From: Bacteroidota bacterium | GTDB taxonomy: Bacteria > Bacteroidota > Bacteroidia > Chitinophagales > Saprospiraceae | Direction of reading: 5' to 3' | Length of the DNA stretch: 60,525 nucleotides | NCBI GenBank assembly: GCA_963169325.1 | Contig: CAUJEY010000100.1 | Coordinates: 1-60,525 of the forward strand | Shown here: positions 1 through 60,525 of the stretch, in pieces | Layout: every line of letters begins with the position of its first letter | How positions within the stretch are numbered: position 1 is the stretch's first letter | The notes under the pieces: generated by a model | What the model saw: the letters and a program-made list of their open reading frames with translations, nothing else | Database searches by the model: none | What the model was told of the DNA's origin: nothing | Position numbers and translations under genes: made by a program

Positions 1-515
1 ATGACCGACATGGGCGTGATGGTCACGTCTTTTTTTGCGGTGATTTCCACAATGCTCAGCGCACAAAAGGGCAGGTGCCGCAGCGCCATGACGGTGTGGC
101 TGACCGCAATTTTGTCGCCAACGTTGAACGTCGTCGTCAGTTGGGCCTGCCGCATATCCAGTGTTTGGCGGTAGCCGGAAATACTGCCTCGGCCGACGCG
201 CTGACCGTCTACGTCGAGGTCCATGTTCACGAAATTGAACCCTTTGAGGATATTACTCACCCGGCCGCGCTGGTAATTGTCGTAAGCGCCGTTGAGCACC
301 ACGTCTTTCACCTTCATCGGGTCGGGGCTGGATACCAGGCCGATCATGCCGTTGGCCACGGTGATGCCGTAGTAGTTGGCAGGGTCGATGTTTTCGCCGA
401 CGATTTTCCAGGCGTCGGATTGCGGATTTCGGATTTCGGATTTCGGATTGGTTTGCGCGGGCAGAGTGATGCCCACAAAAACCAGGCATGAGAGCAGGAA
501 GTACAATGATTTCAT
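1..515 (-). CDS. GH65-like glycoside hydrolase, N-terminal part (cut by window edge)
   Basis: The frame is open from the ATG at 515 to the window edge, giving 171 residues of the amino end only. It starts with a signal peptide (MKSLYFLLSCLVFVGITLPAQ), so the protein is exported. The following sequence (motifs ANGMIGLVSSP, VLNGAYDNY, TFNVGDKIAVSHTV, MALRHLP) resembles the N-terminal beta-sandwich of family 65 glycoside hydrolases and phosphorylases; that assignment is from memory of the family, and the catalytic barrel lies outside the window. Residues 24-34 directly after the signal peptide are encoded by a heptamer array (416-450) and give the low-complexity stretch NPKSEIRNPQS, which is not part of the normal fold. 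Another secreted carbohydrate-active protein is possible. Confidence 0.6.
   Translation of the reverse strand, partial: MKSLYFLLSCLVFVGITLPAQTNPKSEIRNPQSDAWKIVGENIDPANYYGITVANGMIGLVSSPDPMKVKDVVLNGAYDNYQRGRVSNILKGFNFVNMDLDVDGQRVGRGSISGYRQTLDMRQAQLTTTFNVGDKIAVSHTVMALRHLPFCALSIVEITAKKDVTITPMSV
416..450. repeat. Five tandem heptamers inside a coding region
   Basis: Five exact 7-nt units on the plus strand (CGGATTG, then CGGATTT three times, then CGGATTG) lie inside the exported GH65-like gene, just after the signal-peptide codons. Three units equal 21 nt, so the encoded peptide has a period of seven residues. It belongs to the word-array class found across the window. Confidence 0.9.
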
Positions 516-552
516 GATGATGCGCTTTTACTGCCGTCTGAATTATATCTTT

Positions 553-579
553 GACAGGATTGACATGATTTGCAGGATA
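553..579. repeat. Three 9-mer word repeats (GACAGGATT type)
   Basis: Three consecutive 9-mers, GACAGGATT, GACATGATT and TGCAGGATA, lie in the divergent gap between the cut GH65-like gene and the PqqB-like gene. The same word returns as a fold-back pair at 14044-14113 and once at 28281. It probably lies in the leader of the downstream gene and makes an upstream ATG at 570 an unlikely start. Confidence 0.75.
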
Positions 580-611
580 ATACCTGCCGCAGCAAAGATC
601 AAAATAAGCTT

Positions 612-1568
612 ATGAACTCCATGCTTAAACATTTCATTTGGCTGTCTTTTCTCCTGCACTCCGCCTGCACTCCGCCCCGAAAGGCGCCTTCGCCACAACA
701 TGGCATCAGCCTGATGGTGCTCGGCGTCGCCCAGGACGGCGGTTATCCGCACGCCGGCTGTCGGCGTGACTGTTGCCGGCGCGTTTGGTCGGGCAGGCAA
801 CCTCAAAGTTCTCCGACTTGCCTGGCCATAGCCGATCACCGCTCCCGCAAGGTATGGATGTTCGAGGCAACTCCGGCTTACCCGGCACAATGGGAACGCC
901 TGACAGAAGCAACAGGCTGGGCGGATAAAAATGCGCCGGATGGCATTTTCCTAACCCATGCGCACATCGGCCATTACACGGGGCTGATGTACCTGGGTCG
1001 CGAGGCATTGGGCGCTACAGCCGTGCCGGTGTATGCGCTGCCGCGTATGAAAAATTTCCTCGAAACCAACGGCCCCTGGAGCCAGTTAGTCAGCCTGAAA
1101 AATATCGCGATACAACCCTTGCAACGCGATTCGGCGGTGGAGCCGGCGCCCGGTATCCGGGTGACGCCATTTATGGTGCCGCATCGCGACGAGTATTCCG
1201 AAACCGCGGGCTACCGCATCGAAGCCGGAGGCAAACGGATCTTATTCATCCCCGATATCGATAAATGGGAAAAATGGGAACGCGATATCAGCCGGGAAAT
1301 TGAGGCCGTGGATATCGCTTTTTTAGACGCTACTTTTTATAAAAACGGTGAATTGCAACGCGATATGCGCGAAATACCCCATCCCTTTGTAGAAGAATCC
1401 ATGCGCTTGTTTGATGTTTTACCGGCAACCGAAAAAGCCAAAGTGCATTTCATTCATTTCAACCACACCAATCCGTTGCTCTGGGACCCGGCCGAAGTAA
1501 AAGCCGTGGAAGCCCGGGGATTCCAAGTAGCGCAAGAGGGAGCGATTGTCCCTTTATCCGGGCAATAA
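612..1568 (+). CDS. PqqB-like metallo-beta-lactamase-fold lipoprotein
   Basis: 318 residues from the ATG at 612 (621 is also possible). An in-frame ATG at 570 lies in the 9-mer repeat and is less likely. The N-terminus is a lipoprotein signal with lipobox LHSAC. Motif GVAQDGGYPHAGC followed by a CC pair resembles the PqqB zinc-binding start. The metal motif reads THAHIGHYTGL: the two first histidines and the third are kept, but the usual Asp of HxHxDH is Gly. This fits the PqqB-like subfamily rather than a classical lactamase. C-terminal FNHTNP is also typical. No pqqA, C, D or E gene is nearby, so a role in PQQ synthesis is not supported; an unknown hydrolase anchored in the envelope is the safer call. 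The next gene follows after a 47-nt gap filled by a heptamer array, suggesting co-transcription. Confidence 0.8.
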   Translation: MNSMLKHFIWLSFLLHSACTPPRKAPSPQHGISLMVLGVAQDGGYPHAGCRRDCCRRVWSGRQPQSSPTCLAIADHRSRKVWMFEATPAYPAQWERLTEATGWADKNAPDGIFLTHAHIGHYTGLMYLGREALGATAVPVYALPRMKNFLETNGPWSQLVSLKNIAIQPLQRDSAVEPAPGIRVTPFMVPHRDEYSETAGYRIEAGGKRILFIPDIDKWEKWERDISREIEAVDIAFLDATFYKNGELQRDMREIPHPFVEESMRLFDVLPATEKAKVHFIHFNHTNPLLWDPAEVKAVEARGFQVAQEGAIVPLSGQ

Positions 1569-1573
1569 CATGT

Positions 1574-1615
1574 ACTTTTGACTTTTGCATTTTGACTCTT
1601 ACATTTTGACTTTAC
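1574..1615. repeat. Six heptamers filling an intergenic gap
   Basis: Six consecutive 7-nt units (ACTTTTG, ACTTTTG, CATTTTG, ACTCTTA, CATTTTG, ACTTTAC) run from 5 nt after the TAA at 1566-1568 to the base before the ATG at 1616. The same word family makes up the array at 9211-9297. Confidence 0.9.
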
Positions 1616-2389
1616 ATGATTTCCGCACTCATTCCGATCCTCATAGCCGGCGCAGTAGCCTTCACGGTTTTTTCTATAAAAAGAGCCCGCGACCGCGCCC
1701 GGCAAAAGGCCATGGAACAACTGGCCCTACACCTGGGCATGATCTTTTCGACCGACGATAGTTATGGCTTACTGCCACAATTGAAGGGTTTCGAACTCTT
1801 TCGCCGCGAACGCAGGTGGCTGGGCAGCGCCGGGCGGATCAAAAACGTGCTGCGCAGTACGGTAGGCGATACGGAAGTGTTTCTGTTTGATTACAGTTAT
1901 GTGGTTTCTACCGGAAAATCCGCCCGGCGCATCACACAAACCGTTTTTTTCGCCAATAACAAAAACTGGTACCTGCCAAACTTCCGGTTAAAACCCGAAA
2001 ACTGGTACGGGAAAGTATTGGCCGCGTTTGATAAAAGTGACATTAATTTTTCAGAGAGCCCGGAATTTTCGAATCGTTTTTGGCTCAGCGGCGAATTCGA
2101 ATCGTTGATTCGTAAAAAATTCAGCCCCACCGTACAGCAGTTTCTGGTCGAAAGCCCGCCCGCGCACCTCGAAGGCAATAACTACTACCTGTTGGCGTAT
2201 AAACCGCGTAAAATGCTGGATGCCCGGGAGGCCGAAGTATTTTTTCAGCATTGCTGCCAGTTGGTTAAATTGTTTCAGGAAGAAGGAAAACTCGAATTAC
2301 TGAACTTAGCCGAGGTAACGCCGGCGCCGGAAATCCCCCTCGAAATGCCGCCGATACCGGCGAAAGAAACCAGGCTGCAAGGAGATTAA
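1616..2389 (+). CDS. Unknown membrane-anchored protein
   Basis: 257 residues. One N-terminal transmembrane segment (about residues 3-22: ALIPILIAGAVAFTVFS) is followed by a basic stretch and a soluble region of about 220 residues rich in aromatic residues (FDYSYVV, KNWYLPNFRLKPENWYG, FLVESPPAHLEG). I do not recognise a family with certainty; the layout recalls DUF3137-like proteins. A charged N-out/C-in topology would place the soluble part in the cytoplasm. The start codon directly abuts the heptamer array, so any ribosome-binding sequence would have to lie inside the repeat. It is likely in an operon with the preceding lipoprotein. Confidence 0.75.
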   Translation: MISALIPILIAGAVAFTVFSIKRARDRARQKAMEQLALHLGMIFSTDDSYGLLPQLKGFELFRRERRWLGSAGRIKNVLRSTVGDTEVFLFDYSYVVSTGKSARRITQTVFFANNKNWYLPNFRLKPENWYGKVLAAFDKSDINFSESPEFSNRFWLSGEFESLIRKKFSPTVQQFLVESPPAHLEGNNYYLLAYKPRKMLDAREAEVFFQHCCQLVKLFQEEGKLELLNLAEVTPAPEIPLEMPPIPAKETRLQGD

Positions 2390-3357: not shown

Positions 3358-3401
3358 CTAAAAATCTAAATTTTTTCATCATCCCTTTTTCCGCGTTAAA
3401 G

Positions 3402-8064: not shown

Positions 8065-8124
8065 TTGGCAATAAGCAATTAAAACTGGCAAACTATTTGT
8101 AATGTATTAATTGCTTATTGCCAA
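8065..8124. repeat. 18-bp perfect inverted repeat between adhesin and PorP/SprF genes
   Basis: Arms 8065-8082 and 8107-8124 are exact reverse complements, separated by 24 nt. The arms contain the words GGCAATA and AGCAATT. It begins 11 nt after the adhesin stop. It could limit read-through into the downstream gene, but no T-run follows, so it may instead stabilise the adhesin mRNA end or be another fold-back word array. Confidence 0.85.
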
Positions 8125-9208: not shown

Positions 9209-9210
9209 AA

Positions 9211-9297
9211 TGTAAAAGTCAAAATGTAAAAGGGCCGGGCGAGCGCCCCTTTTACATTTTACATTTTGACTTTTACATTTTGACTTTACATTTTGCC
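9211..9297. repeat. Fold-back heptamer array between convergent genes
   Basis: Three plus-sense units (TGTAAAA, GTCAAAA, TGTAAAA) at 9211-9231, a GC-rich hairpin core (GGGC...GCCC) at 9232-9249, then seven complementary units (TTTTACA, TTTTGAC, with one 6-nt unit TTTACA) to 9297. The array runs into hemC: the hemC stop codon and last two codons (KM) are made of array words. It may act as a bidirectional transcription end. Confidence 0.88.
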
Positions 9298-10176
9298 TTT
9301 CCTCAGCCTTTCCACTATTTTTTCTGCCAATCCAAAACTGGTGCTTTGTGAAATTTGTGCCTGTATTAGTTCGCCCTCCAGTTCGCAGGCGGCAAACACG
9401 TGGTAATTGCCCGAGGCATCCCGGGAGGCATGCACCCCGAGTGGCAGTTGGCAGCCGCCGTCCATCAACTGGAGCGCCCGGCGTTCCACATTGGTGACGG
9501 CCGAAATTTCCGGATGATGCAATTGTTTCAGGATTCGGCGGGTGGGCAGGTCGTCGCGATGCGTTTGCCAGGCCAAAACGCCCTGGGCCGGGGCGGGCAC
9601 GAATTCGCGGGGGTTGAGTTCCACGACTTCCAATCCGGACAGGCCCAATCCCAGGCGGCCCACGCCGGCGGCGGCCAGAAAAATGGCGTCGTACTCCCCG
9701 CGGTGGAGTTTTTCCAACCGGGTGGGCACGTTGCCGCGCAGGTCTTTTAATTCCACATCGGGCCGGTAATGGTGCATTTGCGCTTTACGCCGCGCCGCCG
9801 AGGTGCCCACTATGGCGCCGGGTTTTAGTTTAAATATTTGTCCGGGCGTCACCGCTTCCGGGCGAATCAGGAGCAGGTCCGCCGGGTTGTCGCGATACGA
9901 CACAGCGGTGATGACCAATCCTTCCAGCTGGCTGGTCGGCAGGTCTTTCATGGAATGAACGGCCAGGTCCACCTCGCCGCGAAGGAGGGCGTCTTCTATT
10001 TCTTTGGTAAAAAAACCCTTGCCCTCCATTTTGTCGAAACTCAGGTGCTGCACGAGGTCGCCTTTGGTCTTGATAATGACCAGTTCGCTCTCTACGCCGA
10101 TACGGCGGAGTTCAGCCTGGGTGAATTCGGCCTGCCAAAGGGCCAGTTTACTACCGCGGGTACCTATCCTAAGCAT
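9286..10176 (-). CDS. hemC: Hydroxymethylbilane synthase (porphobilinogen deaminase)
   Basis: 296 residues, close to the usual 300-315. The enzyme joins four porphobilinogen units into hydroxymethylbilane in haem synthesis, in the cytoplasm. Visible signatures: MLRIGTRGSKLALWQA at the start, VDLAVHSMKDLPT (catalytic Asp region), GTSAARRKAQ and LRGNVPTRL (substrate-binding arginines), FVPAPAQGVLAWQ, and MDGGCQLPLG with the Cys at about residue 242 that holds the dipyrromethane cofactor. No other haem gene is adjacent. It lies downstream of bshA on the same strand with a 105-nt gap filled by heptamers. Its last codons are contributed by the repeat array on its 3' side. Confidence 0.97.
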   Translation of the reverse strand: MLRIGTRGSKLALWQAEFTQAELRRIGVESELVIIKTKGDLVQHLSFDKMEGKGFFTKEIEDALLRGEVDLAVHSMKDLPTSQLEGLVITAVSYRDNPADLLLIRPEAVTPGQIFKLKPGAIVGTSAARRKAQMHHYRPDVELKDLRGNVPTRLEKLHRGEYDAIFLAAAGVGRLGLGLSGLEVVELNPREFVPAPAQGVLAWQTHRDDLPTRRILKQLHHPEISAVTNVERRALQLMDGGCQLPLGVHASRDASGNYHVFAACELEGELIQAQISQSTSFGLAEKIVERLRKGKM

Positions 10177-10182: not shown

Positions 10183-10283
10183 AGTTTGAAGTTTGAAGTT
10201 CGAAGTTTGAAGTTCGAAGTTTGGAGTTCGAAGTTTGGAGTTCGAGGTTTGAACTTCGAACTTTAAACTTCAAACTTCAAACT
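10183..10283. repeat. Fourteen-unit heptamer fold-back array between bshA and hemC
   Basis: Fourteen uninterrupted 7-nt units fill the gap: ten of the AGTTTGA/AGTTCGA/AGTTTGG type (10183-10252) followed by four of the complementary ACTTCAA/ACTTCGA type (10253-10280) and a partial unit that overlaps the bshA stop codon (10282-10284). It starts 7 nt from the hemC start. The two halves can pair into a long hairpin in the bshA-hemC transcript. The word returns at 14137-14164. Confidence 0.93.
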
Positions 10284-11424
10284 ACTCCACTTTAACCACA
10301 CTTCGCTCCAACACTTCCTCATAGTATCTTTCATAATCCGGGAGGATTTTGTGCAAGTCGAAACGTTTGGCCTGGGTGAGGGCATTTTGCCGGAATTGCT
10401 GGAGCATTTCGTCGTTTTGCAGGAGTTGTATGGCGTAGCCGGCCATTTCGTCGGTTTTTCCGGGATCGCTGAGAAAACCAGTGACGCCGTGAATATTCAC
10501 CTCGGGCAAGCCGCCGCTGTTGGAAGAGATGACGGGCACTTCGCAGGCCATGGCTTCCAGGGCCGAGAGGCCGAAACTTTCGCTTTCGGAAGGGATCAGA
10601 AACAGGTCGCAGATGGCCAGCAATTCCTCGATAGGGTCTTGTTTGCCAAGGAAACGTACGTCATCGCAGATACCCAGTTGGCGCGACAGGCGCTCGCTGT
10701 TTTGCCGCTCCGGGCCGTCGCCGATCATCAGGAGTTTGGACGGCACCTGATCGTGTACTTTTTTGAAAATATGGATGACGTCTTCCACCCGTTTTACCTT
10801 GCGAAAATTGGACGTATGGGCTAAAATACGTTCGCCGTTGGGCGCCAGGATTTTTTTAAAATGGTCTTTATCCACTTTTCTAAAGCGCTCAAAATCAATA
10901 AAATTATAAATCACCCGGATATCCCGCTCGATGTTGAACAACCGTTGGGTGTCCTTTTTCAGGCTTTCCGAAACGGCCGTTACGCCGTCGCTTTTATTGA
11001 TGCTGAACTCCACTACCGGTGCAAATGCGCGGTTGTTGCCCACCAGGGTGATGTCGGTGCCGTGCAGGGTAGTGATTACCGGGACGTAGCGGCCCTGGCT
11101 GAGCAGGATTTTTTTGGCCATGTAAGCCACCGCGGCATGCGGGATGGCGTAGTGTACATGGAGCAAATCGATATTATGATATTGCACCACATCCACGATA
11201 CTGGACGTGAGTGCCGTATCGTACGGCGGATACTCGAACAGGGGGTAATCCTCATTGTCCACTTCGTGGTAAAATACGTTTTCGTGGAAATGGGCCAGCC
11301 GCACCGGACGGCGGTAGGTGATAAAATGTACTTCGTGGCCTTTGCGGGCCAGGCCGAGGCCCAGTTCGGTGGCAATTACACCGGAACCGCCATAGGTTGG
11401 GTAACAAACGATACCAATTTTCAT
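10282..11424 (-). CDS. bshA: N-acetyl-alpha-D-glucosaminyl L-malate synthase BshA (bacillithiol)
   Basis: 380 residues, the usual length. GT4-family glycosyltransferase that joins UDP-GlcNAc and L-malate, the first step of bacillithiol synthesis. Signatures: MKIGIVCYPTYGGSGVIATELG, HVHYAIPHAAVAYMAK, VITTLHGTDITLVG, FSINKSDGVTAVSESLK, VIYNFID, MIGDGPER and ESESFGLSALEAMACEVPVISSNSGGLPE (nucleotide-sugar binding). The combination is characteristic of BshA rather than a generic GT4. Likely first gene of a bshA-hemC unit. A sequence CACTTTTG, similar to the -7 box of the small RNAs at 38-39 kb, lies upstream on the minus strand at 11567-11574. Confidence 0.95.
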   Translation of the reverse strand: MKIGIVCYPTYGGSGVIATELGLGLARKGHEVHFITYRRPVRLAHFHENVFYHEVDNEDYPLFEYPPYDTALTSSIVDVVQYHNIDLLHVHYAIPHAAVAYMAKKILLSQGRYVPVITTLHGTDITLVGNNRAFAPVVEFSINKSDGVTAVSESLKKDTQRLFNIERDIRVIYNFIDFERFRKVDKDHFKKILAPNGERILAHTSNFRKVKRVEDVIHIFKKVHDQVPSKLLMIGDGPERQNSERLSRQLGICDDVRFLGKQDPIEELLAICDLFLIPSESESFGLSALEAMACEVPVISSNSGGLPEVNIHGVTGFLSDPGKTDEMAGYAIQLLQNDEMLQQFRQNALTQAKRFDLHKILPDYERYYEEVLERSVVKVE

Positions 11425-14011: not shown

Positions 14012-14043
14012 TTGAATTGTGATGGTGTTTTTTAAAAAATTTG

Positions 14044-14136: not shown

Positions 14137-14164
14137 CGAACTTCAAACTCCAAACTTCGAACTT
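14137..14164. repeat. Four heptamers (CGAACTT word)
   Basis: Units CGAACTT, CAAACTC, CAAACTT, CGAACTT end 2 nt before the stop codon of the ABC permease (14167-14169). The same word forms the large array between bshA and hemC. Confidence 0.85.
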
Positions 14165-15400: not shown

Positions 15401-16594
15401 TTACAACAGTTTTTCTAAATAATGCTCCCGGATACCAAATCCCGCTTTCAGCGCCGCCACCTTTTTCAGTGCCTCCTCCCGCCGTCCGCCGTCCACCGCC
15501 CGCCGTCCACCGTCCACCGTCTCCCGTCCACCGTCCACTGCCGTGATCATCACATTTTTAGCCGTATGTTCGGTGGAAATAAATTCGAATACGTTGGTTT
15601 TGTATCCGTTGGCTTCGAGCAGCAGCGCCCGTATACCGTCGGTCACGATTTCGGCTTGTCGTTCTTCGAGGATGCCGTGGCGGAGGATCGGCGCCAGTTC
15701 GTTGTGGGTTTCCATGTCGCGGCGGACTTGCTTGTGGCAGCAGGGCGCTACGATCACGATGCCCGCCCGGGCATGGATACCTTTGGCTAAGGCCAGGTCG
15801 GTGGCGGTATCGCAGGCATGCAGGGCGATCAACAGGTCGAGGCGTTCGGGCTGGAAGTCGTTAATATCGTTGGCGATGAATTGTAAGCCGGCGAAACCCG
15901 CTTTTTGGGCTATTTTATTGCAAAAATCTACTAAATTTTGCCGCAACTCAATGCCGGTAACGCTCGGGCTGAGTCCTGGCCGGCGGCTCAAAAAGTCATA
16001 AAGGGCAAACGTGAGGTATCCTTTGCCGCTGCCCATGTCGGCTATTTGGGCATTCGGCGGCAGGGGGTGGTCCCGCAGCAGGCTATCTACTATTTCGAGG
16101 AACTTGTTAATCTGTTTCCATTTGTCTTGTGCGGTGGACAACACTTCCCCTTTGGCGTTGGTAATACCCAAGTCGTGCAGCCAGGGGGCGGCAGGGTCGA
16201 GCAGGCGGTGTTTTTCGCGGTCGTGACGGGTATCGGCGGGTTCGGTTTGGGTGGGCTTTTTGGCAGAAAGGGTGGCCTTGCCGTTTTTCGCGAAGGAAAG
16301 GGTGACGTCCTGTTCGGTTGTAAACAGATCGGCATTCAAAAACAGGGCGCCGAGCAGTTGTTCCAATTGTTGTTTTGCTTCTGCCAGGGTGAAATTTTTT
16401 ACCTCGTCGCGGGTTTTATAGCGATACGTGAAGGCAATGCGCGGCCCGGCTTTGAGTGCCACGGGACGCAGGTAAATATTTTTCAAACCTTCCGGTGCGG
16501 TGGGCACGGGTTTGCTGAGGGTACATTTAAGAAATTGACCGGAAGAAAAAGCCGTTTCGAAAATGTCCGGAAAACGCTGAATAACAGGCTCCAA
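15401..16594 (-). CDS. Class I SAM-dependent methyltransferase with an in-frame heptamer insert
   Basis: 397 residues. An N-terminal domain (1-150) precedes the Rossmann methyltransferase core: motif I IADMGSGKGYLTFAL, LIALHACDTATDLAL, then VIVAPCCHKQVRRDM. The PCCHK motif points to the Methyltransf_32-type group; substrate unknown (RNA or protein). Between the core and the C-terminal helix lies a seven-residue-period repeat (VDGGRET, VDGGRRA, VDGGRRE) encoded by eight heptamers at 15483-15538. The reading frame continues normally after it to ALKKVAALKAGFGIREHYLEKLL, so the insert is tolerated. The downstream permease starts 4 nt after the stop, suggesting co-transcription. Confidence 0.85.
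   Translation of the reverse strand: MEPVIQRFPDIFETAFSSGQFLKCTLSKPVPTAPEGLKNIYLRPVALKAGPRIAFTYRYKTRDEVKNFTLAEAKQQLEQLLGALFLNADLFTTEQDVTLSFAKNGKATLSAKKPTQTEPADTRHDREKHRLLDPAAPWLHDLGITNAKGEVLSTAQDKWKQINKFLEIVDSLLRDHPLPPNAQIADMGSGKGYLTFALYDFLSRRPGLSPSVTGIELRQNLVDFCNKIAQKAGFAGLQFIANDINDFQPERLDLLIALHACDTATDLALAKGIHARAGIVIVAPCCHKQVRRDMETHNELAPILRHGILEERQAEIVTDGIRALLLEANGYKTNVFEFISTEHTAKNVMITAVDGGRETVDGGRRAVDGGRREEALKKVAALKAGFGIREHYLEKLL
15483..15538. repeat. Eight heptamers inside the methyltransferase coding region
   Basis: Eight 7-nt units in phase on the plus strand, five CGTCCAC and three variants (CGTCTCC, CGCCCGC, CGTCCGC). The array is part of the open frame and encodes the VDGGR repeat near the carboxyl end of the methyltransferase. 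Confidence 0.93.
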
Positions 16595-22875: not shown

Positions 22876-23167
22876 TAGTCCAGGATTTTAAGAGTGGGGC
22901 TGTGTCAAAAGGGCATTCTACATTTTTCCCGCAGTAGATTATTTTAATTCACCACGGAAGTAGAATATCGAATGTCGAACAAGGAATATCGAATGTCGAA
23001 GTTGCGTAGAGTACACCGCATCACGGAACGCACTACGGGTATTTCGACATTCGATATTTCTTGTTCGACATTCGATATTCTCCGTGTCTCTGTGGTAAAA
23101 AATTTGTCGCAGTCTTCTTGCAAAAGACTTTTGACACAACCTCACTCTAAAACTGCCCGGACTATTA
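22876..23167. repeat. Nested inverted repeat, MITE-like, between Tricorn and metK genes
   Basis: Outer arms 22891-22911 and 23128-23148 match 19 of 21 positions as reverse complements and contain TGTGTCAAAAG, a sequence resembling insertion-sequence ends; pairing continues imperfectly outward to the metK stop. Inner arms 22963-23000 and 23043-23080 match 37 of 38 and are built from the words GAATATCGAA and TGTCGAA. No transposase frame is inside. This fills the 321-nt gap between two convergent genes and could also end transcription from both sides. Confidence 0.75.
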
Positions 23168-24417: not shown

Positions 24418-24510
24418 AGTTTTGAGTTTTGAGTTTTGAGTTTTGAGTGGTGGGTTTTGAGTTAATGGGTTGGTTTAAACAACTCAAAACTCATTACTCA
24501 CCACTCAAAC
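24418..24510. repeat. Heptamer array in the metK leader, partly fold-back
   Basis: Six units (AGTTTTG four times, AGTGGTG, GGTTTTG) at 24418-24459 are followed by complementary words (ACTCAAA, ACTCACC) at 24481-24510. It starts 5 nt upstream of the metK ATG (minus strand) and would form a hairpin in the leader, close to the ribosome entry site. Confidence 0.88.
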
Positions 24511-24524
24511 CTGTAAAAGCGGCG

Positions 24525-27887: not shown

Positions 27888-28286
27888 ATGAAAAAAATAA
27901 AACGTGTACTGGTTTCAAGCGAAGCGGCGCAAGTAATTGAGCGACTGCGCCGGGAGCACGGCCCCCTGCTTTTTCACCAAAGCGGCGGGTGTTGCGATGG
28001 TTCGGCGCCCATGTGTTTTCCCCGGGGCGAGTTCCGGGTAGGCGCCAGCGATGTATGGGTGGGCGAGATTGCGGGCTGCCCTTTTTTTATGAATGATTTT
28101 CAGTTCGAATATTGGCAACATACCCAGTTAACAATCGATGTGACGCCGGGGCGGGGCGCCAGTTTTTCGCTGGAAATTCCACTGGGCCTACGTTTTGTAG
28201 TCAAATCGCGTTTGTTTACGGCGGAAGAGGAGGGGTTGCTGGAAGCCGTTTTTTCGGGCGAAGTATATGAAACCAAAGAATATTGA
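27888..28286 (+). CDS. DUF779 protein linked to aldehyde dehydrogenase
   Basis: 132 residues. Family motifs: LLFHQSGGCCDGSAPMCF (conserved Cys pair and Cys), GEIAGCPFFMNDFQFEYWQHTQLTIDVTPGRG and FSLEIPLGLRFVVKSRLFT. DUF779 proteins are repeatedly encoded beside acetaldehyde dehydrogenases; their exact role is not settled, and metal or cofactor handling via the cysteines is only a guess. The stop codon TGA opens a short GACAGGATT-like word (28284-28305). Confidence 0.92.
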   Translation: MKKIKRVLVSSEAAQVIERLRREHGPLLFHQSGGCCDGSAPMCFPRGEFRVGASDVWVGEIAGCPFFMNDFQFEYWQHTQLTIDVTPGRGASFSLEIPLGLRFVVKSRLFTAEEEGLLEAVFSGEVYETKEY

Positions 28287-31078: not shown

Positions 31079-31130
31079 TTTTTAGGGGTGCGAATGTCCT
31101 TATTAATCGCCTAACGACGACTAACAACCC

Positions 31131-31180
31131 AATGACAACCAATGACGTTCAATGACGACCAATGACGATCAATAACGTTC
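31131..31180. repeat. Five decamers (AATGACGTTC word) overlapping a gene end
   Basis: Exactly five 10-nt units, AATGACAACC, AATGACGTTC, AATGACGACC, AATGACGATC, AATAACGTTC. The last units include the stop codon and final codons of the phosphoesterase gene (stop at 31169-31171). Confidence 0.9.
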
Positions 31181-34097: not shown

Positions 34098-34198
34098 AAC
34101 CACATTAGGCCACATTACCCGATTTCGATTGGTTTGAACGACTACTTAGTACGCTCAAAAATCCCACTCGAAATCGGCTAATGTGGCCTACTGTGGTT
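34098..34198. repeat. 31-bp inverted repeat between convergent genes
   Basis: Arms 34098-34128 and 34168-34198 are reverse complements with a few mismatches, built from the repeated word CCACATTA followed by a CGATTTCGA end. It fills the gap between the acidic-protein gene and the PspC gene and probably ends transcription from both sides. Confidence 0.82.
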
Positions 34199-36361: not shown

Positions 36362-36411
36362 AAGGTTTCTAAGGTTACTGGTTTCTAAGGTTTCTGGTTG
36401 GAGGGTTGGGG
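36362..36411. repeat. AAGGTTTCT word array between PadR and PspC genes
   Basis: Units AAGGTTTCT, AAGGTTACT, GGTTTCT, AAGGTTTCT (9, 9, 7, 9 nt) followed by degenerate GGTTGG words. It lies in the PadR-PspC transcript, about 25 nt upstream of the PspC start. Confidence 0.75.
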
Positions 36412-39652: not shown

Positions 39653-39999
39653 AGTACAAAAGTGCAGCACATCCATCCGCTGCCAAAGGACAAAATAAAG
39701 GTCTTGTTGAGTAACTTTTTCGTACACGAGTGATGGATTATCTGCTTATTTTATAAACTAAAATATTGATAAACAGTATTTTAGTATTATTAATTTAAGA
39801 GTTAAAAAATCAATTTTGTTGAGAAAAAATTATTTTTTCGACTCCATTTTTTTTAAAAACATTTTTACCAATCCGAGGGGAGGAAAACAATATTTGCGGT
39901 TGAAATGCGCATATAGTGCTGTAAATGAGATAATTGTATAAATTACCTCTGCATCACCAGCAATTTCTAATGTAAAATATTTACGCGGTTACGCCCGTG

Positions 40000-40145
40000 C
40001 TACCCCTATCCCCTTTCCCCCCCGAACTTGTCATCCCGGAGGGAACCGTCCGCTCTACGAGGGGAAAACCCGCAGGTGAGGCCCTTGTAGAGCGGACGGT
40101 TCCCTCCGGGATGACAAGTTCGGGGGGGAAAGGGGATAGGGGTAG
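40000..40145. repeat. 59-bp perfect inverted repeat
   Basis: Arms 40000-40058 and 40087-40145 are exact reverse complements over all 59 bp, separated by 28 nt. The arm contains a run of seven C and is far richer in GC than its surroundings. Any transcript across it would form a very long hairpin. It lies in the 918-nt gap after the lipocalin-like gene; the remaining 40146-40382 has no gene I can support. Confidence 0.93.
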
Positions 40146-40382
40146 TTCGCGGGTTATGTACGGCTGAGGCTGGGATAGCGGCTGATGACAAACAGGAGGA
40201 AAGAAGAGGAAGAGGGGACAGCATGGGCGTAATTGTTTTAATGACCTCTCCGCAACTATAAGATACCGGTCATAACGGCTCGTTCAGGACTTGAAGGTTT
40301 ATATTCGCACTTGCATGCCAGGCACACCCAATATTTGACCTCTCCGAGGTCGTCCAGAATTTTGATATGTTTGCCCCTTCCC

Positions 40383-49392: not shown

Positions 49393-51381
49393 ATGGTCAA
49401 ACAGTTCATCGCCTCGACCTGCCTGCTTTTTCTGCTCGCTGCTCCCGGTACCGCTCTGCTTCGGGCTCAATCTACCGACCCGGTACTTTTCACTGTAAAA
49501 AACAACCCCGTTTATCTCTCCGAATTCCGACAGATTTACGCTAAAACCAACCAGCAAAAGGCCGACTTTTCGGAAGCTTCGCTGCGGGAATACCTTGACT
49601 TGTATGTCAAGTTCAAACTTAAGGTGCAAAAAGCCCGCGATATGCACCTGGACACCGTAGAAGCCTTCAAATCCGAGCTCGACGGCTACCGGCGGCAACT
49701 GGCTGCCACCTACCTGGTGGATAAAGAAGTGACCGACAAACTCATCCATGAGGCCTACGAGCACATGAAACGGGATGCCGACATCAGCCATATCTTTATC
49801 GCCTGCGACAAAAATGCTAAAGCCGCCGACACGCTCATCGCGTACAACCGGGTCATGAACCTGTTAAAAATGATTCAGAACGGCGCGGCTTTCGAACAGG
49901 TGGCCCGCGATAGTTCGGAGGACAAATCGGCTAAGGAGAACAGCGGAAATCTCGGCTACGTGACCGCCATGCTGCCCGACGGCTATTATAACCTGGAAAA
50001 AGCTGTTTATAGCGCCAAACCCAGCGAAATACTCCACCCGGTGCGGACCAATGCCGGCTACCATATCGTGCGGGTGCATGCTTTCCGCCCGGCCCGCGGA
50101 GAAATGGAAGTGTCGCAAATCCTGCTGCGCAAAGGCAGCAGTGAAGAGGAAAATGCGAGAAAACGCCTTCGCGCCGACAGCATTTATGCCGCCCTGAAAG
50201 CGGGGGCCAAATGGGACGATATCTGCGCGCAGACGTCGGAAGATCAGATGAGCGCCGGAAAAGGCGGATATATCGGTTTTTTTGGAATCAACCGCTACCA
50301 ACGTGCCTTCGAGGATGCCGCGTTCGCACTAAAAAATGACGGCGACATTTCAGGACCGGTAGAAACCTCCATTGGTTATCACGTGATCAAACGCATCAGC
50401 CATCGCGGCGTGGGCAGCTTCGACGATTTCCGGCGCCCGCTCACCGAGCGCGTAAAACGCGACAGCCGCAGCGAAGTAGCCAAACAAAGCATGATTAACC
50501 GCATCCAAAAAGATGGCAACTTTAAGGAATACCCCGATGCATTGGCCCAGTGGACGGCGCAGCAGGTCGACTCCGTTTTCCTGACCTTTAAATGGAAACC
50601 AGACCCGGCCAAACCGCAAACGCCGCTTCAACGCTACGGCGATGCCAAAGCCTACACGGTAGCCGATTTTGAAGAATTCTGCGCACGCGCCAGCCGCGAT
50701 CGGATGCGCGGTATCGGCAACCCCGTGAAAGAAATGGTGGACAAACTGTATAAAAACTGGTCGGACGAAGTAGCCCTTCAGTTTGAAGAAAGCCAGCTGG
50801 ACAAAAAATACCCCGAGTTCAGGTCGCTGATGCGCGAATACGAAGAAGGCATGCTGCTCTTTGACGCCGCCAAACAGGAAGTATGGGATCGCGCCAACTC
50901 CGACTCTACCGGTCTGGAGCAATACTTCAACCAGAACCTGTCGAACAAGTACAAATGGGACGAGCGCGCCCGCGTGAGCATCTACACCCTCAAATCGGAC
51001 GACCCACAACTGTTACTTAAGGTGCGGGAGTTTTCGGCTAAAAAGTCCGCTGAAGACGTGTTGAAGAAGTTTAATAAAAAAGAAAATGTGCTGACTGTAA
51101 TCGAAAAGATCTACGAAAAAGGCAAGAACAAAGACCTAAACGACGTTTGGAAAGCCGGAAGCCTCACCAATGCCAAAACCGACGCCGGCACCAAAACGGC
51201 CAACTTTATTAAGGTGGAAGAAATCATTCCGCCGACGGCTAAAACACTCGGCGAATCGCGGGGTTACGCGGTTGCGGACTACCAGGATAATCTGGAAAAA
51301 CAGTGGGTGGAAAAATTGAAGACAGAATATCCGGTGAAAATACAAGAGGGTGCATTCCAGACTTTGATCAAAAAGCCGTAA
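49393..51381 (+). CDS. PpiC/SurA-type peptidyl-prolyl isomerase, copy 1
   Basis: 662 residues with signal peptide MVKQFIASTCLLFLLAAPGT. A helical N-terminal arm (LYVKFKLKVQKARDM), two adjacent PpiC rotamase domains (about 120-235: DISHIFIACDK, SGNLGYVTAMLPDGYYNLEKAVYSAKPSEI; about 235-350: MEVSQILLRKGS, GGYIGFFGINRYQRAFEDAAF), then a long helical tail. It folds outer-membrane or secreted proteins in the periplasm, a need made plausible by the many barrels and T9SS proteins here. The gene is followed by a terminator and by a second copy. Confidence 0.93.
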   Translation: MVKQFIASTCLLFLLAAPGTALLRAQSTDPVLFTVKNNPVYLSEFRQIYAKTNQQKADFSEASLREYLDLYVKFKLKVQKARDMHLDTVEAFKSELDGYRRQLAATYLVDKEVTDKLIHEAYEHMKRDADISHIFIACDKNAKAADTLIAYNRVMNLLKMIQNGAAFEQVARDSSEDKSAKENSGNLGYVTAMLPDGYYNLEKAVYSAKPSEILHPVRTNAGYHIVRVHAFRPARGEMEVSQILLRKGSSEEENARKRLRADSIYAALKAGAKWDDICAQTSEDQMSAGKGGYIGFFGINRYQRAFEDAAFALKNDGDISGPVETSIGYHVIKRISHRGVGSFDDFRRPLTERVKRDSRSEVAKQSMINRIQKDGNFKEYPDALAQWTAQQVDSVFLTFKWKPDPAKPQTPLQRYGDAKAYTVADFEEFCARASRDRMRGIGNPVKEMVDKLYKNWSDEVALQFEESQLDKKYPEFRSLMREYEEGMLLFDAAKQEVWDRANSDSTGLEQYFNQNLSNKYKWDERARVSIYTLKSDDPQLLLKVREFSAKKSAEDVLKKFNKKENVLTVIEKIYEKGKNKDLNDVWKAGSLTNAKTDAGTKTANFIKVEEIIPPTAKTLGESRGYAVADYQDNLEKQWVEKLKTEYPVKIQEGAFQTLIKKP

Positions 51382-51546: not shown

Positions 51547-53535
51547 ATGGTCAAACAGTTCATCGCCTCGACCTGCCTGCTTTTTCTGATCGCTGCTCCC
51601 GGTAGCGCTCCGCTTCGCGCTCAAACTACCGATCCGGTACTTTTCACGGTAAAAAACAACCCTGTATATCTTTCTGAGTTCCGGCAGCTTTACACCAAAA
51701 CCCACCAGCAAAAAGCCGATTTTTCGGAAGTTTCGTTGCGGGCATACCTGGATTTGTATGTCAAATTCAAATTAAAGGTGCAAAAAGCCCGCGATATGCG
51801 CCTCGACACTTTGGAAGCCTTCGTGACCGAAATAGATGGTCAACGCCGGCAATTGGCGGCTTCCTACCTGGTAGATAAAGAAGTGACTGACAAGCTTGTC
51901 CTGGAGGCTTACGAGCGTATGAAACAGGATGCCGACATCAGCCACATCTTTATCGCCTGCGACAAAAACGCTAAAGCCGCCGATACGCTCATCGCATACA
52001 ACAGAGCGATGAACCTTTTTAAAATGCTCCAAAACGGCGCTTCTTTTGAACAGGTGGCCCGCGATAGTTCGGAAGATAAGTCGGCTAAGGAGAACAGCGG
52101 AAATCTCGGCTTTGTAACCGCCATGTTGCCCGACGGCTATTACAACCTGGAAAAAGCGGTTTACAGTGCCAAACCCGACGAACTACTCCGCCCGGTACGC
52201 ACCAATGCCGGCTACCATATCGTGCGGGTGCATAGCTTTCGCCCGGCCCGCGGCGAAATGGAAGTGTCGCAAATCATGTTGCGTAAAGGAACCAGTGAAA
52301 CCGAAAATGCCATAAAACGCCTGCGTGCCGATAGTATTTATGCCGCCCTTCAAGCCGGCGCCAAATGGGATGATATCTGTGCGCGGACTTCGGAAGATCA
52401 GATGAGCGCCGGGAAAGGCGGATATATCGGCTTTTTCGGGATCAACCGCTACCAACGTGCGTTCGAAGATGCCGCGTTTGGGCTAAAAAACGACGGCGAT
52501 ATTTCAGCGCCTGCTGAAACCTCTCTCGGTTGGCACCTGATCAAACGAATCAGTCACCGCGGCGTGGACAGCTTCGAAAACTTCCGGCGCCCGCTCACCG
52601 AACGAGTCAAACGCGACAGCCGCAGCGAAGAAGCCAAAAAAAGCATGATCGCCCGCATCCAAAAGGAGGGTGATTTCCAGGAATACCCCGACGTTTTGGC
52701 CCGGTGGACGGCGCAGCAGGTCGACTCTATTTTCCTGACCTTTAAATGGAACCCCGACCCGGCCAAACCGCAAACGACGCTCCAACGATATGGCGATGCC
52801 AAAACCTACACGGTGGCCGATTTTGAAGAATACTGCGCCCGCGCCAGCCGAGACCGGATGCGCGGCATCGGCAATCCCGTGAAAGAAATGGTGGATAAAC
52901 TGTATAAAAACTGGTCGGATGAAGTAGCCATACATTTTGAAGAAGGCCGACTGGAGGATAAATATCCTGAATTCAGGGCGCTGATGCGGGAGTTCAAGGA
53001 AGGAACATTGATGTTTGAAGCCACCAACCTGGAGGTGCGGGAACGCGCCAGTTCAGACTCTGTCGGCTTGCAGCAATATTTCAACCAGAACCTGGCGAGC
53101 AAGTATAAATGGGACGAACGCGCCCGCGTGAGCATCTACACCCTCAAATCGGAAGACCCGCAACTACTGCTTAAGGTGCGGGAATTTGCTACTAAAAACG
53201 CCCCCGAAGCCGTATTAAAGCAGTTTAACAAAAATGAAGCGGTACTAATCGTATTGGATAAAACCTACGAAAAGGGTAAAAATAAAGACCTGAACGACGT
53301 CTGGAAAGCAGGAAGCCTCACTAACGCCAGGGCCGACGCCAGCACCAAAACGGCTTACTTTATAAAGGTGGAAGAAATTATTCCGCCGACGGCGAAAACG
53401 CTCGGCGAATCGCGGGGTTACGCGGTGGCGGACTATCAGGATTATTTAGAAAAACAGTGGCTGGAAAAATTGAGATCAGAATATCCGGTAAAAATAGAGG
53501 AGGCCGTGTTTCAAACCCTGATTAAAAAACAGTAA
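51547..53535 (+). CDS. PpiC/SurA-type peptidyl-prolyl isomerase, copy 2
   Basis: 662 residues, colinear with copy 1 without gaps on visual alignment and with most positions identical (first 17 residues differ at one). Same domains: signal peptide, two rotamase domains, helical tail. Similarity starts about 20 nt upstream of the ATG, so the duplication covered the start region but not the terminator. Conserved length and frame show both copies are under selection. Substitutions cluster in the helical tail (for example EEGMLLFDAAKQE versus KEGTLMFEATNLE) and near residues 90-110, which may give different client ranges. It is followed by a 64-nt gap to the GH3-family gene. Confidence 0.93.
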   Translation: MVKQFIASTCLLFLIAAPGSAPLRAQTTDPVLFTVKNNPVYLSEFRQLYTKTHQQKADFSEVSLRAYLDLYVKFKLKVQKARDMRLDTLEAFVTEIDGQRRQLAASYLVDKEVTDKLVLEAYERMKQDADISHIFIACDKNAKAADTLIAYNRAMNLFKMLQNGASFEQVARDSSEDKSAKENSGNLGFVTAMLPDGYYNLEKAVYSAKPDELLRPVRTNAGYHIVRVHSFRPARGEMEVSQIMLRKGTSETENAIKRLRADSIYAALQAGAKWDDICARTSEDQMSAGKGGYIGFFGINRYQRAFEDAAFGLKNDGDISAPAETSLGWHLIKRISHRGVDSFENFRRPLTERVKRDSRSEEAKKSMIARIQKEGDFQEYPDVLARWTAQQVDSIFLTFKWNPDPAKPQTTLQRYGDAKTYTVADFEEYCARASRDRMRGIGNPVKEMVDKLYKNWSDEVAIHFEEGRLEDKYPEFRALMREFKEGTLMFEATNLEVRERASSDSVGLQQYFNQNLASKYKWDERARVSIYTLKSEDPQLLLKVREFATKNAPEAVLKQFNKNEAVLIVLDKTYEKGKNKDLNDVWKAGSLTNARADASTKTAYFIKVEEIIPPTAKTLGESRGYAVADYQDYLEKQWLEKLRSEYPVKIEEAVFQTLIKKQ

Positions 53536-55286: not shown

Positions 55287-56282
55287 ATGATTAGAGTGTT
55301 TCTCCCAGGCATCTTTCTCGCTTTTTTTATCCCGTTCCTGATTTCTGCCCAGGCGCCGCTCCCGGTGGCCGATCAAACCTTCCGCATGGAAGGCGAGCAC
55401 GAATTTGTGTACGCCTTTGCCCGGGGCGACGAACTAACGCTTCATATTCAGTTGCTGGTAGGCAGACAGGTAAAAACAGTGGAGTTTGTGCAGCACGGCG
55501 GCCCGACGCTGTTCAGTACCTATGCCTTGGATTCTTCGCTTACCCAAACTATCCTGATCCCTCAAACGGGTATTTATCTGCTGCGCTTTCGGGAAAGCGG
55601 CATGGGAAAAAAGGTATGCCGGTTCAACCTGCACCGCGCGCCGGCCGACGAACTGACGAAACGTATGGATACGCGGGTGCCCTGGGATATCCGGCAGAAC
55701 CCGCAATTCCGGGAGCTACGGCGCCTGGTACCGGCCGGTAAAAAGACGGATGTACATACCTTGGGCGGGCAGATTACCGTGAATGCCGCCAAAATGGGCC
55801 TGAGCAAACCCGTGAGCGCCTATTATTTTACCCTGCCGCCCAACACCGTAAACTGGGCGTACCGGATTTCCGTCGGCCAGGCGCTCACCGAGGCCCGCAA
55901 AAAAGACGCGGATCAACTGACCAATGCGCTGAATTCCGGCGCGTCCAAACTGTTGCCTGTGAGCCCCCAAACTGCACTTGCCGCCTTTGCACTTGGTATG
56001 GCCATCGACCTCACCGTGCCAAAAGCCGGTGAAAACGTGGAATACGCCTTGCTAACAGCGGAAAACCTGCCCAAATTCAACAAACGGGAACGTTATGACG
56101 CCTTTATCTGGCAAGGCGATATTAGTGTGGACGTACAGCGCCGGTACAGTCCGCTGGAAGGCAGCTACTATTTTGCCTTTCGCAGCGACAATTGGGTAGA
56201 TGCCATTGCCATTACGATCGATATCGAGGCGGTGACTGAAACGCCCATATTCGGTGAAGAAATTTACTTAGCGCCGTTTTAG
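55287..56282 (+). CDS. Unknown secreted protein
   Basis: 331 residues with signal peptide MIRVFLPGIFLAFFIPFLIS and mature start QAPLPVADQTFRMEGEHEFVYAFARGDELTL. An N-terminal beta-sandwich (25-125) is followed by a region with a helix (EARKKDADQLTNALNSG) and a second beta-sandwich (AIDLTVPKAGENVEYALLTAENL, GSYYFAFRSDNWVDAIAITIDIEAV). It has no sorting domain at the end, so it is likely periplasmic. Family not recognised. The stop codon is the first part of the octamer array that follows. Confidence 0.72.
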   Translation: MIRVFLPGIFLAFFIPFLISAQAPLPVADQTFRMEGEHEFVYAFARGDELTLHIQLLVGRQVKTVEFVQHGGPTLFSTYALDSSLTQTILIPQTGIYLLRFRESGMGKKVCRFNLHRAPADELTKRMDTRVPWDIRQNPQFRELRRLVPAGKKTDVHTLGGQITVNAAKMGLSKPVSAYYFTLPPNTVNWAYRISVGQALTEARKKDADQLTNALNSGASKLLPVSPQTALAAFALGMAIDLTVPKAGENVEYALLTAENLPKFNKRERYDAFIWQGDISVDVQRRYSPLEGSYYFAFRSDNWVDAIAITIDIEAVTETPIFGEEIYLAPF

Positions 56283-56369
56283 TGTTTCGGTGTTTTAGTG
56301 TTTTCGTGCCTCAGTGTTTTAGTTCGCGTAGGCACTAAAACACTAAAACACCGAGGCACAAAAACACCT
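56282..56369. repeat. Eleven-octamer fold-back array
   Basis: Eleven contiguous 8-nt units: six of GTGTTTTA type (GTGTTTCG, GTGTTTTA, GTGTTTTC, GTGCCTCA, GTGTTTTA, GTTCGCGT) then five complementary (AGGCACTA, AAACACTA, AAACACCG, AGGCACAA, AAACACCT). The first base belongs to the stop codon of the gene before. Confidence 0.92.
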
Positions 56370-56378
56370 GAAAAAATG

Positions 56379-56425: not shown

Positions 56426-56448
56426 CATGGTTTGGAGGCTGTATTTGG

Positions 56449-58926: not shown

Positions 58927-59123
58927 TTTCGCCGGGAAAAATAAGGCATTCGGGTGGGTTGGGCGGCACATTATCCGTTTTTTCGGCCAACATCGGTTGG
59001 TCGTGCATGGTTTGGTCACCTACAGACTTTAATTTCCCGTAATTTTGTCGCCGAAAGCCGAACCTGAAAAAATCTTTTTTCTTTCCCCTGCGTTATCTAC
59101 GCTCAAATAAATATGACTCGCTT

Positions 59124-60404
59124 ATGCGCCGGATACTTTTTGCCTTAGCCCTGATGGCCTGCGCCGCCTCCCCACTACGCGCCACATACATGCTTATCCC
59201 GATGGATGAAAGCGCTCAAAACAATCACCTCAAGGCTTATGGAGTTACCTACTGGGTTATTTCGCAAGGGGTGGAAGCGTATTGGCTGCTGAATTACCGG
59301 GGCGGAAGTTTTGCGTTCCCGTACACGGCTACGTTTGATAAAGAATGTAAAACGCGGAACGTGAAATTCGAGGTGATTGCAGACGCCCAGTTTGCAGCCA
59401 TTCAAAATGAAATCCTGAACCCGGAGGTGAACATGGACGTCATCAAACTGGAAAAAGCGCCGAAAATCGCCGTTTACTCCCCGGATAAGGATGAAAAAGG
59501 TGAAATTATTCAACCCTGGGACGATGCCGTTACCCTCGTGCTGACCTACGCCGAAATACCCTACGACGTAATATACGACACGGATGTTTTGCAGGGCAAA
59601 CTGCTCGAATACGACTGGCTGCACCTGCACCACGAAGATTTTACCGGTATGTACGGTAAATTTTACGCCAGCCACAGCAACCAGCCCTGGTACCGCGACC
59701 ATGTGCGCATGATGGAAGGCCTGGCCCGGGAAAACGGATTCACCAAAGTGAGCCAGCTCAAATTAGCCGTGGCTAAAAGGATCGCCGAATACGTATCCGG
59801 CGGCGGATTTATGTTCGCGATGTGTTCCGCCACCGACACCTACGATATCGCCCTGGCCGCCGAAGGCCTGGATATCTGCGCCGAAATGTACGACGGCGAT
59901 CCCGCGGACCCCAACGCCCAAAACAAACTTGATTTCAGCAAAACCCTGGCCTTCGAAAATTTTCAGCTGATTCGCGACCCACTGACTTACGAACACTCCA
60001 CGATCGATCATAACCTGGGCCGCAATGTAAACCCCGAACAAGATTATTTCACGCTCTTCGATTTTTCCGCCAAATGGGACCCTGTGCCCACCATGCTGAC
60101 CCAATGCCACACCCGCACGGTGAAAGGATTTATGGGTCAAAGCACCGCTTTTATGAAGCCGACCATCAAACCGACCGTGCTCATTATGGGAGAAAACAAA
60201 CCTGCTAATGAGGCCCGGTATATTCACGGCACCTACGGCTACGGCTTCTGGACCTACTACGGCGGCCACGACCCGGAAGATTACCGGCACTTCGTCGGCG
60301 ACCCGCCCACCGACCTGGCCCTGCACCCCAATTCTCCGGGTTACCGCCTGATTCTCAATAATATATTGTTCCCTGCTGCGAAGAAAAAACACCAGAAAAC
60401 GTAA
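59124..60404 (+). CDS. Conserved secreted protein (homologs often labelled asparagine synthetase B)
   Basis: 426 residues with signal peptide MRRILFALALMACAASPLRA. Mature start TYMLIPMDESAQNNHLKAYGVTYW, then WLLNYRGGSFAFPY, a Rossmann-like region (KIAVYSPDKDEKGEIIQPWDDAVTLVLTYAEIPYDVIYD, YDWLHLHHEDFTG, GGGFMFAMCSATDTYDIALAAEG) and GTYGYGFWTYYGGHDPEDY near the end. The GGGFMFAMCSA segment resembles the nucleophile elbow of class I glutamine-amidotransferase-like (DJ-1/PfpI) folds, with Cys in place. Homologs carry the name asparagine synthetase B, but no synthetase domain is visible, so I do not adopt it. Function unknown. A -7-like box TAATTTTG lies at 59040-59047. Confidence 0.82.
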   Translation: MRRILFALALMACAASPLRATYMLIPMDESAQNNHLKAYGVTYWVISQGVEAYWLLNYRGGSFAFPYTATFDKECKTRNVKFEVIADAQFAAIQNEILNPEVNMDVIKLEKAPKIAVYSPDKDEKGEIIQPWDDAVTLVLTYAEIPYDVIYDTDVLQGKLLEYDWLHLHHEDFTGMYGKFYASHSNQPWYRDHVRMMEGLARENGFTKVSQLKLAVAKRIAEYVSGGGFMFAMCSATDTYDIALAAEGLDICAEMYDGDPADPNAQNKLDFSKTLAFENFQLIRDPLTYEHSTIDHNLGRNVNPEQDYFTLFDFSAKWDPVPTMLTQCHTRTVKGFMGQSTAFMKPTIKPTVLIMGENKPANEARYIHGTYGYGFWTYYGGHDPEDYRHFVGDPPTDLALHPNSPGYRLILNNILFPAAKKKHQKT

Positions 60405-60405
60405 G

Positions 60406-60525
60406 GGAGGTTTAGGGGTTTGGAGGTTTAGGGGGTTGGAGGTTTGGGGGTTTAGAGGTTTGGGGGTTTGGGGGGTTGGGGGTTTGGGGGGGGGGTGGGG
60501 CGGGGGGGGGGGAGGTAGGGAGGCG
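60406..60525. repeat. G-rich octamer array at the window end
   Basis: Ten 8-nt units (GGAGGTTT, AGGGGTTT, GGAGGTTT, AGGGGGTT and so on) run from 2 nt after the stop codon at 60404 to 60485, then pass into nearly pure G. The G runs could form quadruplexes on the plus strand. The final 40 bases may be unreliable, since sequence of this kind often ends a contig. Confidence 0.8.

Follow-up and report, generated by a model that had tools for sequence, protein, structure and literature searches.

We conclude that the tandem word arrays found along a 60,525-nt stretch of Saprospiraceae DNA are very probably the arms of mobile fold-back elements whose single gene encodes an S23/IVP four-helix-bundle protein, together with derivatives of such elements without an open reading frame (ORF); the case is built on sequence comparison. 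The whole stretch, hereafter the window, is contig C100 of G000, an 8.07-Mb draft genome whose protein content points to Bacteroidota (G, C and L numbers denote genomes, contigs and loci). A full element would consist of an arm of 7–10 nt words, G-rich strand first, followed by the S23/IVP gene (PF05635/TIGR02436) and the complementary word arm, and we read the arrays of the window as ORF-less members of such element families.

An earlier note on this DNA had described seventeen loci with tandem words of fixed length as part of a genome-wide family, many folding back as a sense half followed by an antisense half. TRF gave rows at 14 of these 17 loci and the one at 14038 was recovered as a fold-back, while those at 8065 and 34098 proved weakly tandem. 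With a strict array defined by a TRF period of 6–12, a score of at least 40 and at least 2.8 copies, the window contains 12, every one at a site already named, against none in 20 dinucleotide shuffles. A sample of a further 400 kb of G000 held 91 strict arrays, 57 of them fold-backs by a 12-mer test, and one dinucleotide shuffle of it held none. The autocorrelation proposed as a check gave the same picture in window and sample combined (460 kb): matches per 100 kb peaked at lags 7 (217) and 8 (83), with smaller values at lags 9 (20) and 10 (23), were raised again at lags 14–16 and stayed below 8 at lags 4–6 and 11–13, whereas shuffles gave at most 1.1 at any lag and 0.0 at lag 7. Assembly error is unlikely as a general cause of arrays, since they also occur in relatives assembled into 7–9 contigs and in complete plasmids. 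Words specific to a locus do return at unlinked places, as had been stated, for 10183/14137, 1574/9211, 553/14053 and 16616/31131, although lone 7-mers (CGAACTT) also occur singly elsewhere in the window, and a further site claimed at 28281 came down to one single word (GACAGGATT at 28285).

That four-helix-bundle genes may sit near such repeats was the lead to the gene in question. G000 has eight matches to PF05635 (23S_rRNA_IVP), and TIGR02436 ("four helix bundle protein") was assigned to the five of its own IVP proteins that were scanned. All eight genes are flanked by word arrays on both sides, mostly with sense words on one flank and antisense words on the opposite one, and their words differ; one of them (L015, contig C190) has an in-frame stop and retains both word arms. 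Counting G000 itself, 54 of 60 genomes yielded IVP genes. The genus set comprised 66 loci from the best of the matches listed, of which 65 gave 68 IVP ORFs and 63 had enough flank. Arrays were bilateral in 56 of these 63 and present on at least one side in all 63, and 58 had an inverted-repeat score of at least 40. The corresponding figures for 217 control ORFs were 20, 92 and 6 (24, 96 and 9 before four IVP genes were removed from the original 221; 213 controls are small ORFs from the census regions), and for the 82 controls from G000 alone 5, 33 and 1. At 12 plasmid loci (11 cyanobacterial and one from Gemmatirosa, out of 25 matching records; no control set), arrays with a TRF score of at least 32 lay within 300 nt on both sides in every case, and nine had an inverted-repeat score of at least 36.

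The earlier note had also proposed a search for an enzyme gene whose presence tracks the arrays; the IVP/S23 gene does so, while not being a known enzyme. IVP copy number correlates with array density (rho 0.76, or 0.67 as a partial correlation given genome size) over 23 genomes, with P values that are optimistic given samples of 11.7–400 kb and the kinship of the species, and samples of three IVP-free genomes (82 kb together) held no array. The dN/dS ratio was 0.03–0.16 in the 7 of 11 IVP pairs that gave a finite dS (two of the seven being saturated), and by this measure purifying selection is keeping the IVP ORF.

The word, moreover, follows the protein. Counting an IVP pair as sharing a word when at least four 9-mers are common to both, we obtained for cross-genome pairs, in identity classes from ≥75% downward, 18/18, 25/37, 20/46, 8/50 and 13/226, and 31/1776 below 35% identity, the pairs being non-independent. 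Homologous flanks were found for 36 of the 104 pairs with at least 55% identity, and 32 of these share a word; so do 32 of the 68 pairs without a flank match (3/3, 16/24 and 13/41), where the missing match is weak evidence for separate sites because some flanks are short. Judged from these flanks, part of the covariation is descent at one site. In one group the word differs at an orthologous site, where homology on both sides holds for each of the four cross pairs: G027 and G034 carry AGTCCTG there, and G006 and G016 carry AGTGCGA/AGTCCGA (AGTSCGA). The proteins are 72–73% identical, and in one of these four comparisons the sharing rule is still satisfied, at its minimum of four 9-mers. Exact genome-wide counts in G027, G034, G006 and G016, arms of IVP elements included, were 836, 731, 0 and 1 for AGTCCTGAGTC and 14, 5, 157 and 60 for AGTCCGAAGTC; G030 has 67 copies of AGTCCGAAGTC and none of AGTCCTGAGTC. 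The reversed string of AGTCCTGAGTC, used as the backwards control, is itself part of arrays and therefore reached about 200 in G027 and G034.

The same words recur in arrays away from IVP genes. In the 460 kb of G000, this holds for the words of all eight of its own IVPs and of 5 of 18 IVPs of relatives. Across 13 genomes, 85 of 234 arrays matched one of the IVPs fetched from the same genome, where 21.3 were expected from the IVPs of other genomes. Within the window, 6 of the 17 loci share 12-mers with four IVP elements of G000, a count that has no control.

Whole units are also variably present. Five filled sites in cyanobacterial plasmids have IVP-free counterparts at roughly 86–96% identity, each element sitting where two adjacent genes meet, either directly at the stop codon of the first gene or no more than a few codons away. 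At the TraM site of plasmid L389 the left junction and GGGAAC words are present and the IVP gene is absent, that is, an ORF-less form is in place. Between G007 and G009 (~96% identity), some arrays at matching sites vary mainly in copy number, and each of the two IVP elements tested is missing from the matching flanks of the other species. Neither element gives a clean empty site: for that of G007 the orthologous stretch of G009 is other DNA, and for that of G009 the two flanks are found apart from each other in G007. A word-wise copying or correction machinery, as the earlier note had suggested, is so far unsupported; the changes in copy number between sister species are explicable by slippage, and whole units are present or absent.

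The fold-backs have a polarity. Of the tandem-word inverted repeats found in census regions and window, 69 begin with the G-rich arm and 7 with the C-rich arm, and two are ties, compared with a 41 to 33 split of arm order in non-tandem inverted repeats; because a hairpin is identical on both strands, transcripts from either side carry the G-rich arm first. A constant 13-mer, CGTAGAGTACACC, closes the 5' arm on its inner side; in the genus it does so in fold-backs of six or more different words, with 161 exact copies in G027, 120 in G034, 50 in G016, 38 in G006 and 7 in G000, against one match of the backwards control in 41 genomes. As a universal mark it fails, as it occurs in 15 of the 41 genomes, and the single matches of G011, G033 and G035 have no word fold-back in their context. 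Median numbers of words per arm were 5.1 for period 7, 4.5 for period 8, 4.8 for period 9, 7.0 for period 6 and 4.1 for period 10; we rejected these as the register of a protein ring, because the distribution is broad and biased by the detection threshold, and they are a hint at most.

The structure modelled for an IVP relative from Bacteroidales (L193; alignment with 19 others, pLDDT 95) best matched the S23 proteins 2GSC and 2RLD (five chains each), followed by Avd alone and in the ribonucleoprotein of a diversity-generating retroelement (DGR) (4DWL, 8UBE, 8UB7; Foldseek probability 1.00, TM 0.70–0.85), at 10–14% identity and Foldseek E values of 0.02 and above. The protein of 2GSC is XCC0516 of X. 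campestris, and the Xanthomonas S23 protein is described as a toroidal homopentamer (PMC4990558). In our reading the protein, by its fold an Avd-like ring, would bind the word, likeliest as RNA and with about one word per subunit, so that word length would be fixed while the letters drift with the protein. The IVP would protect or mobilise hairpins of the same word in trans, slippage and arm-to-arm correction would maintain the uniformity of the words, and the G-first order would mean that, whichever strand is transcribed, the same kind of arm leads. That the protein recognises the word is quite conceivable, if short of probable; the explanation as a whole, joining the element model to word recognition and to mobilisation or protection in trans, seems to us the probable one.

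Several observations weigh against this reading. We know of no nuclease or polymerase motif in IVP, and no route of insertion emerges from the data; candidate target duplications stand out at only two of the five plasmid sites and are unequal, 3 bp (ATG) and 5 bp (TTCTA). Fold-backs with the same word have differing loops, which makes the copies unlike simple transposed units, and CGTAGAGTACACC was not found in the eight IVP loci of G000 with one mismatch allowed. Arrays on at least one side are frequent beside control ORFs too (92/217). The bracket is weaker GTDB-wide: among the best-scoring 80 loci of a pattern search, arrays were bilateral at 21 of the 77 with an ORF, versus 16 of 245 controls, and inverted-repeat scores reached 36 in 29 of 75 versus 14 of 245 (median 31 versus 20). 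Some IVP-bearing genomes are poor in arrays (G029, with none in 20 kb; G012; G007). Co-inheritance of gene and arms can suffice for the covariation without any binding; most of the closest pairs lie at homologous sites. Finally, 149 of the 234 arrays have no counterpart among the IVPs fetched from the genome in question, a set from which many IVPs are missing, and G006 lacks the enrichment (1 of 10 arrays, 2.2 expected).

Gene-end fold-backs could instead be bidirectional transcription terminators or 3'-end stabilisers, for which any word would serve. Their position would suit this: 23 of 93 arrays lie within 5 nt of a stop codon, compared with 2% of random intergenic placements, and 35 of 93 within 10 nt, compared with 5%; by eye, the 3' site of one gene carries differing word arrays in 10 of 22 genomes. 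Some ten of those genomes, however, have no array at that site, the link to IVP is left unexplained, and T5 occurs within 15 nt of just 9 of 78 tandem-word inverted repeats, which is still more than the 2 of 80 for other inverted repeats. Intrinsic terminators were rejected on account of this rarity of the T tract, and we consider the explanation as a whole unlikely; a secondary role in termination is compatible with the element model.

Also to be weighed are elements of the repetitive extragenic palindrome (REP) or miniature inverted-repeat transposable element (MITE) kind, moved by a host transposase (the Y1 transposase RAYT, or that of an insertion sequence) with IVP as cargo. Small dispersed palindromes, a constant core in up to 161 copies per genome, and the MITE-like and presumably IS1-like insertions that separate two of the species are all in its favour. 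The element ends, however, are variable words without conserved terminal inverted repeats, and none of the three Y1 transposase (PF01797) matches in G000 has arrays on both sides, which makes this distinctly unlikely.

We regard it as quite improbable that arrays and genes are independent passengers, slippage and template switching making arrays in tolerant intergenic gaps where IVP genes land too. Such a process would account for the sister-species differences in copy number at matching sites and, by eye, for unrelated loops in same-word fold-backs and for arms whose mirror symmetry in some cases extends past the words, which template switching would produce; it is opposed by words that track the IVP protein even where no flank homology was found, by the excess of own-IVP words among ORF-less arrays and by entire units present or absent in related plasmids. 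Templated writing of the words, whether in the manner of telomerase or by a reverse transcriptase (RT) of retron or group II type, is very improbable: the head-to-head polarity (G-rich arm first in 69/76), the four RVT_1 matches of G000 (two group II-like, two retron-like) and the resemblance of IVP to Avd, an RT partner, suit it, yet no RNA template was identified, none of the four RTs is DGR-like and none of their loci has bilateral arrays.

The loci of the window are listed below.

Word arrays and fold-backs of the window, with the support for each
Position	Strand	Feature	Support
415..449		TCGGATT array, 5 copies	TRF
551..578		9-nt array of GACAGGATT type, ~3 copies, weak	TRF score 35
1574..1617		TTTTGAC/TTTTRCA array	12-mers in common with G000 IVP element L016
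8065..8124		Short inverted repeat, tandem word unsupported	Inverted-repeat and periodicity test
9209..9300		TTTTACA/TTTTGAC fold-back, arms 9209-9231 and 9257-9279, more words after	12-mers in common with L016
10183..10283		AGTTYGA fold-back without ORF	Word in common with G000 IVP element L010
14038..14119		9-nt fold-back GACAGGATC/GACAGGATT, arms 41 nt, complementarity 83%	Found as inverted repeat
14137..14164		AACTTCR array, short; word family as at 10183	TRF
15478..15542		CCGTCCA array, ~8 copies, within open frame 15401-16594 (-)	Word in common with G000 IVP element L009
16616..16675		AATGAC array, mixed 7/8/9 nt	TRF
22962..23081		GAATATCGAATGTC fold-back, arms 39 nt, complementarity 97%	Inverted repeat
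23005..23017	+	Constant core CGTAGAGTACACC, inner end of 5' arm	Exact 13-mer
24418..24517		AGTTTTG fold-back immediately upstream of a gene	TRF and inverted repeat
31129..31177		CCAATGACGA array, 10 nt, ~5 copies	TRF
34098..34198		Weakly tandem inverted repeat, CCACATTA words, 35-nt arms, 91%	Inverted-repeat and periodicity test
36362..36399		AAGGTTTCT/AAGGTTACT array	TRF
56276..56365		8-nt fold-back GTTTTAGT/GTTTCGGT	Word in common with IVP locus L038 of G028
60406..60490		GGAGGTTT/GGGGGTTT array at contig end	Word in common with G000 IVP element L013

The first TTTTGAC array begins 6 nt past the stop of ORF 570-1568 and extends into an ATG at 1616. The AGTTYGA fold-back occupies the gap between ORF 10282-11424 (-), which we take to be a glycosyltransferase, and ORF 9286-10176 (-), presumably hemC; the gene just downstream of the AGTTTTG fold-back is presumably S-adenosylmethionine synthetase-like. 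At the right-hand edge, the window end (60406-60525) and the start of contig C231, which carries L013, both terminate in a GGGGTTTG array, C231 beginning within an array of the GGAGGTTT/GGGGGTTT type, and C231 with its IVP element may be what follows the window; the G-run at 60486-60525 looks suspect.

Other repeats and genes were seen along the way. An inverted repeat at 39991-40154 (73 nt, 93% complementary, loop 18 nt) has no tandem word, and a similar palindrome with TTGTCATCCCG lies in L201 at 11486, so that it is probably a separate MITE family. Neighbouring paralogous genes at 49393-51381 and 51547-53535 encode 662 aa each and are closely similar throughout. At L054 (G014) fold-backs are nested, a 9-nt CAGGATTTA hairpin lying within an outer hairpin of other sequence at the same site. 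In the L080-L119 comparison, G007 and G009 are distinguished by MITE-like insertions (GACTTGTTGCGG..CCGCAACAAGTC and ACACTACTGG..CCAGTAGTGT) and by a 771-bp element that we take to be IS1-like. IVP elements lie inside CRISPR operons of the cyanobacterial plasmids L378, L380 and L385, twice as cas6-IVP-cas4 and once as Cmr2-IVP-Cmr3.

Among the closest known arrangements is that of RAYT-REP/REPIN systems, in which a single gene lies between inverted repeats, many non-autonomous copies are served in trans and the repeat is matched to the protein lineage; here the protein is another one, without a known catalytic motif, and the repeats are tandem words, not a fixed palindrome. MITEs differ in that the ends here are variable words, with duplications of 3 and 5 bp at two sites and unclear ones at three. 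The Avd-like fold of the L193 model is shared with DGRs, and a DGR-type RT was not found among the four RTs of G000. Tandem intergenic heptamers, as in cyanobacterial short tandemly repeated repetitive (STRR) sequences, accompany all 11 cyanobacterial plasmid IVP loci as bilateral arrays (TRF score of at least 32, not all complementary), a general likeness seen with no control set.

In the Coxiella 23S rRNA intervening sequence (IVS), tandem GACAGAT heptamers stand directly upstream of the S23 ORF in strain-variable number, and its authors call origin and function unclear (PMC4990558). As in the elements described here, the ORF lies in the loop of a stem; unlike them, the IVS sits within a 23S rRNA helix and is excised by RNase III, whereas here the elements lie between protein genes in many copies, with bilateral word arms and ORF-less forms. 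Of the features of such an IVS, we found the IVP-family ORF and its enclosure in a complementary stem (58/63 versus 6/217 controls); as to insertion in a 23S rRNA helix, an Rfam scan of the window gave no match, and the 11 annotated plasmid IVP loci, to which this statement is confined, lie among protein genes.

The heptamers GGGAATC of Xanthomonas and GGGGAYT of Nostoc are G-rich and intergenic and have been discussed as G-quadruplexes, and two Xanthomonas genomes have 70 and 75 convergent GGGAATC pairs (PMC4692102), which by analogy would show the same head-to-head polarity as here. X. campestris also encodes the S23 protein XCC0516; the heptamer study concerns one word family per organism, and the term S23 is absent from its text (PMC4692102). 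TAACTGA direct repeats near start or stop codons are reported from Beggiatoaceae, Cyanobacteria and Bacteroidetes, with translational regulation proposed (PMC4679880). Like the arrays here they are heptamers close to gene ends; unlike them, they are of a single word and, in the main genome, almost always direct, not inverted, and the paper does not contain the term S23 (PMC4679880). As these arrays were published for five Bacteroidetes (PMC4679880), the statement of the earlier note that no such system had been described in this group was too strong.

Heptamer arrays and S23 intervening sequences are thus each known, and the Coxiella paper notes heptamers by an S23 ORF; we found no paper stating a link between IVP and word in the open-licence PubMed Central literature (PMC5524665, in the part available, has a four helix bundle gene just as an entry in a phage table). 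Tentatively, S23/IVP rings may be readers of words, each lineage with its own word of 7–10 nt that defines and spreads a hairpin family, word and protein switching together; the rRNA IVS, cyanobacterial STRRs, the Xanthomonas GGGAATC repeats and the arrays of the window might then belong to a single class of mobile elements in which the word serves as an address that can change. The finding links things that were separately known and unexplained: the widespread S23 four-helix-bundle protein, the heptamer arrays of Bacteroidota, cyanobacteria and xanthomonads, and the question of how rRNA intervening sequences originated. It would add a small class of mobile elements whose sole gene has no known catalytic domain.

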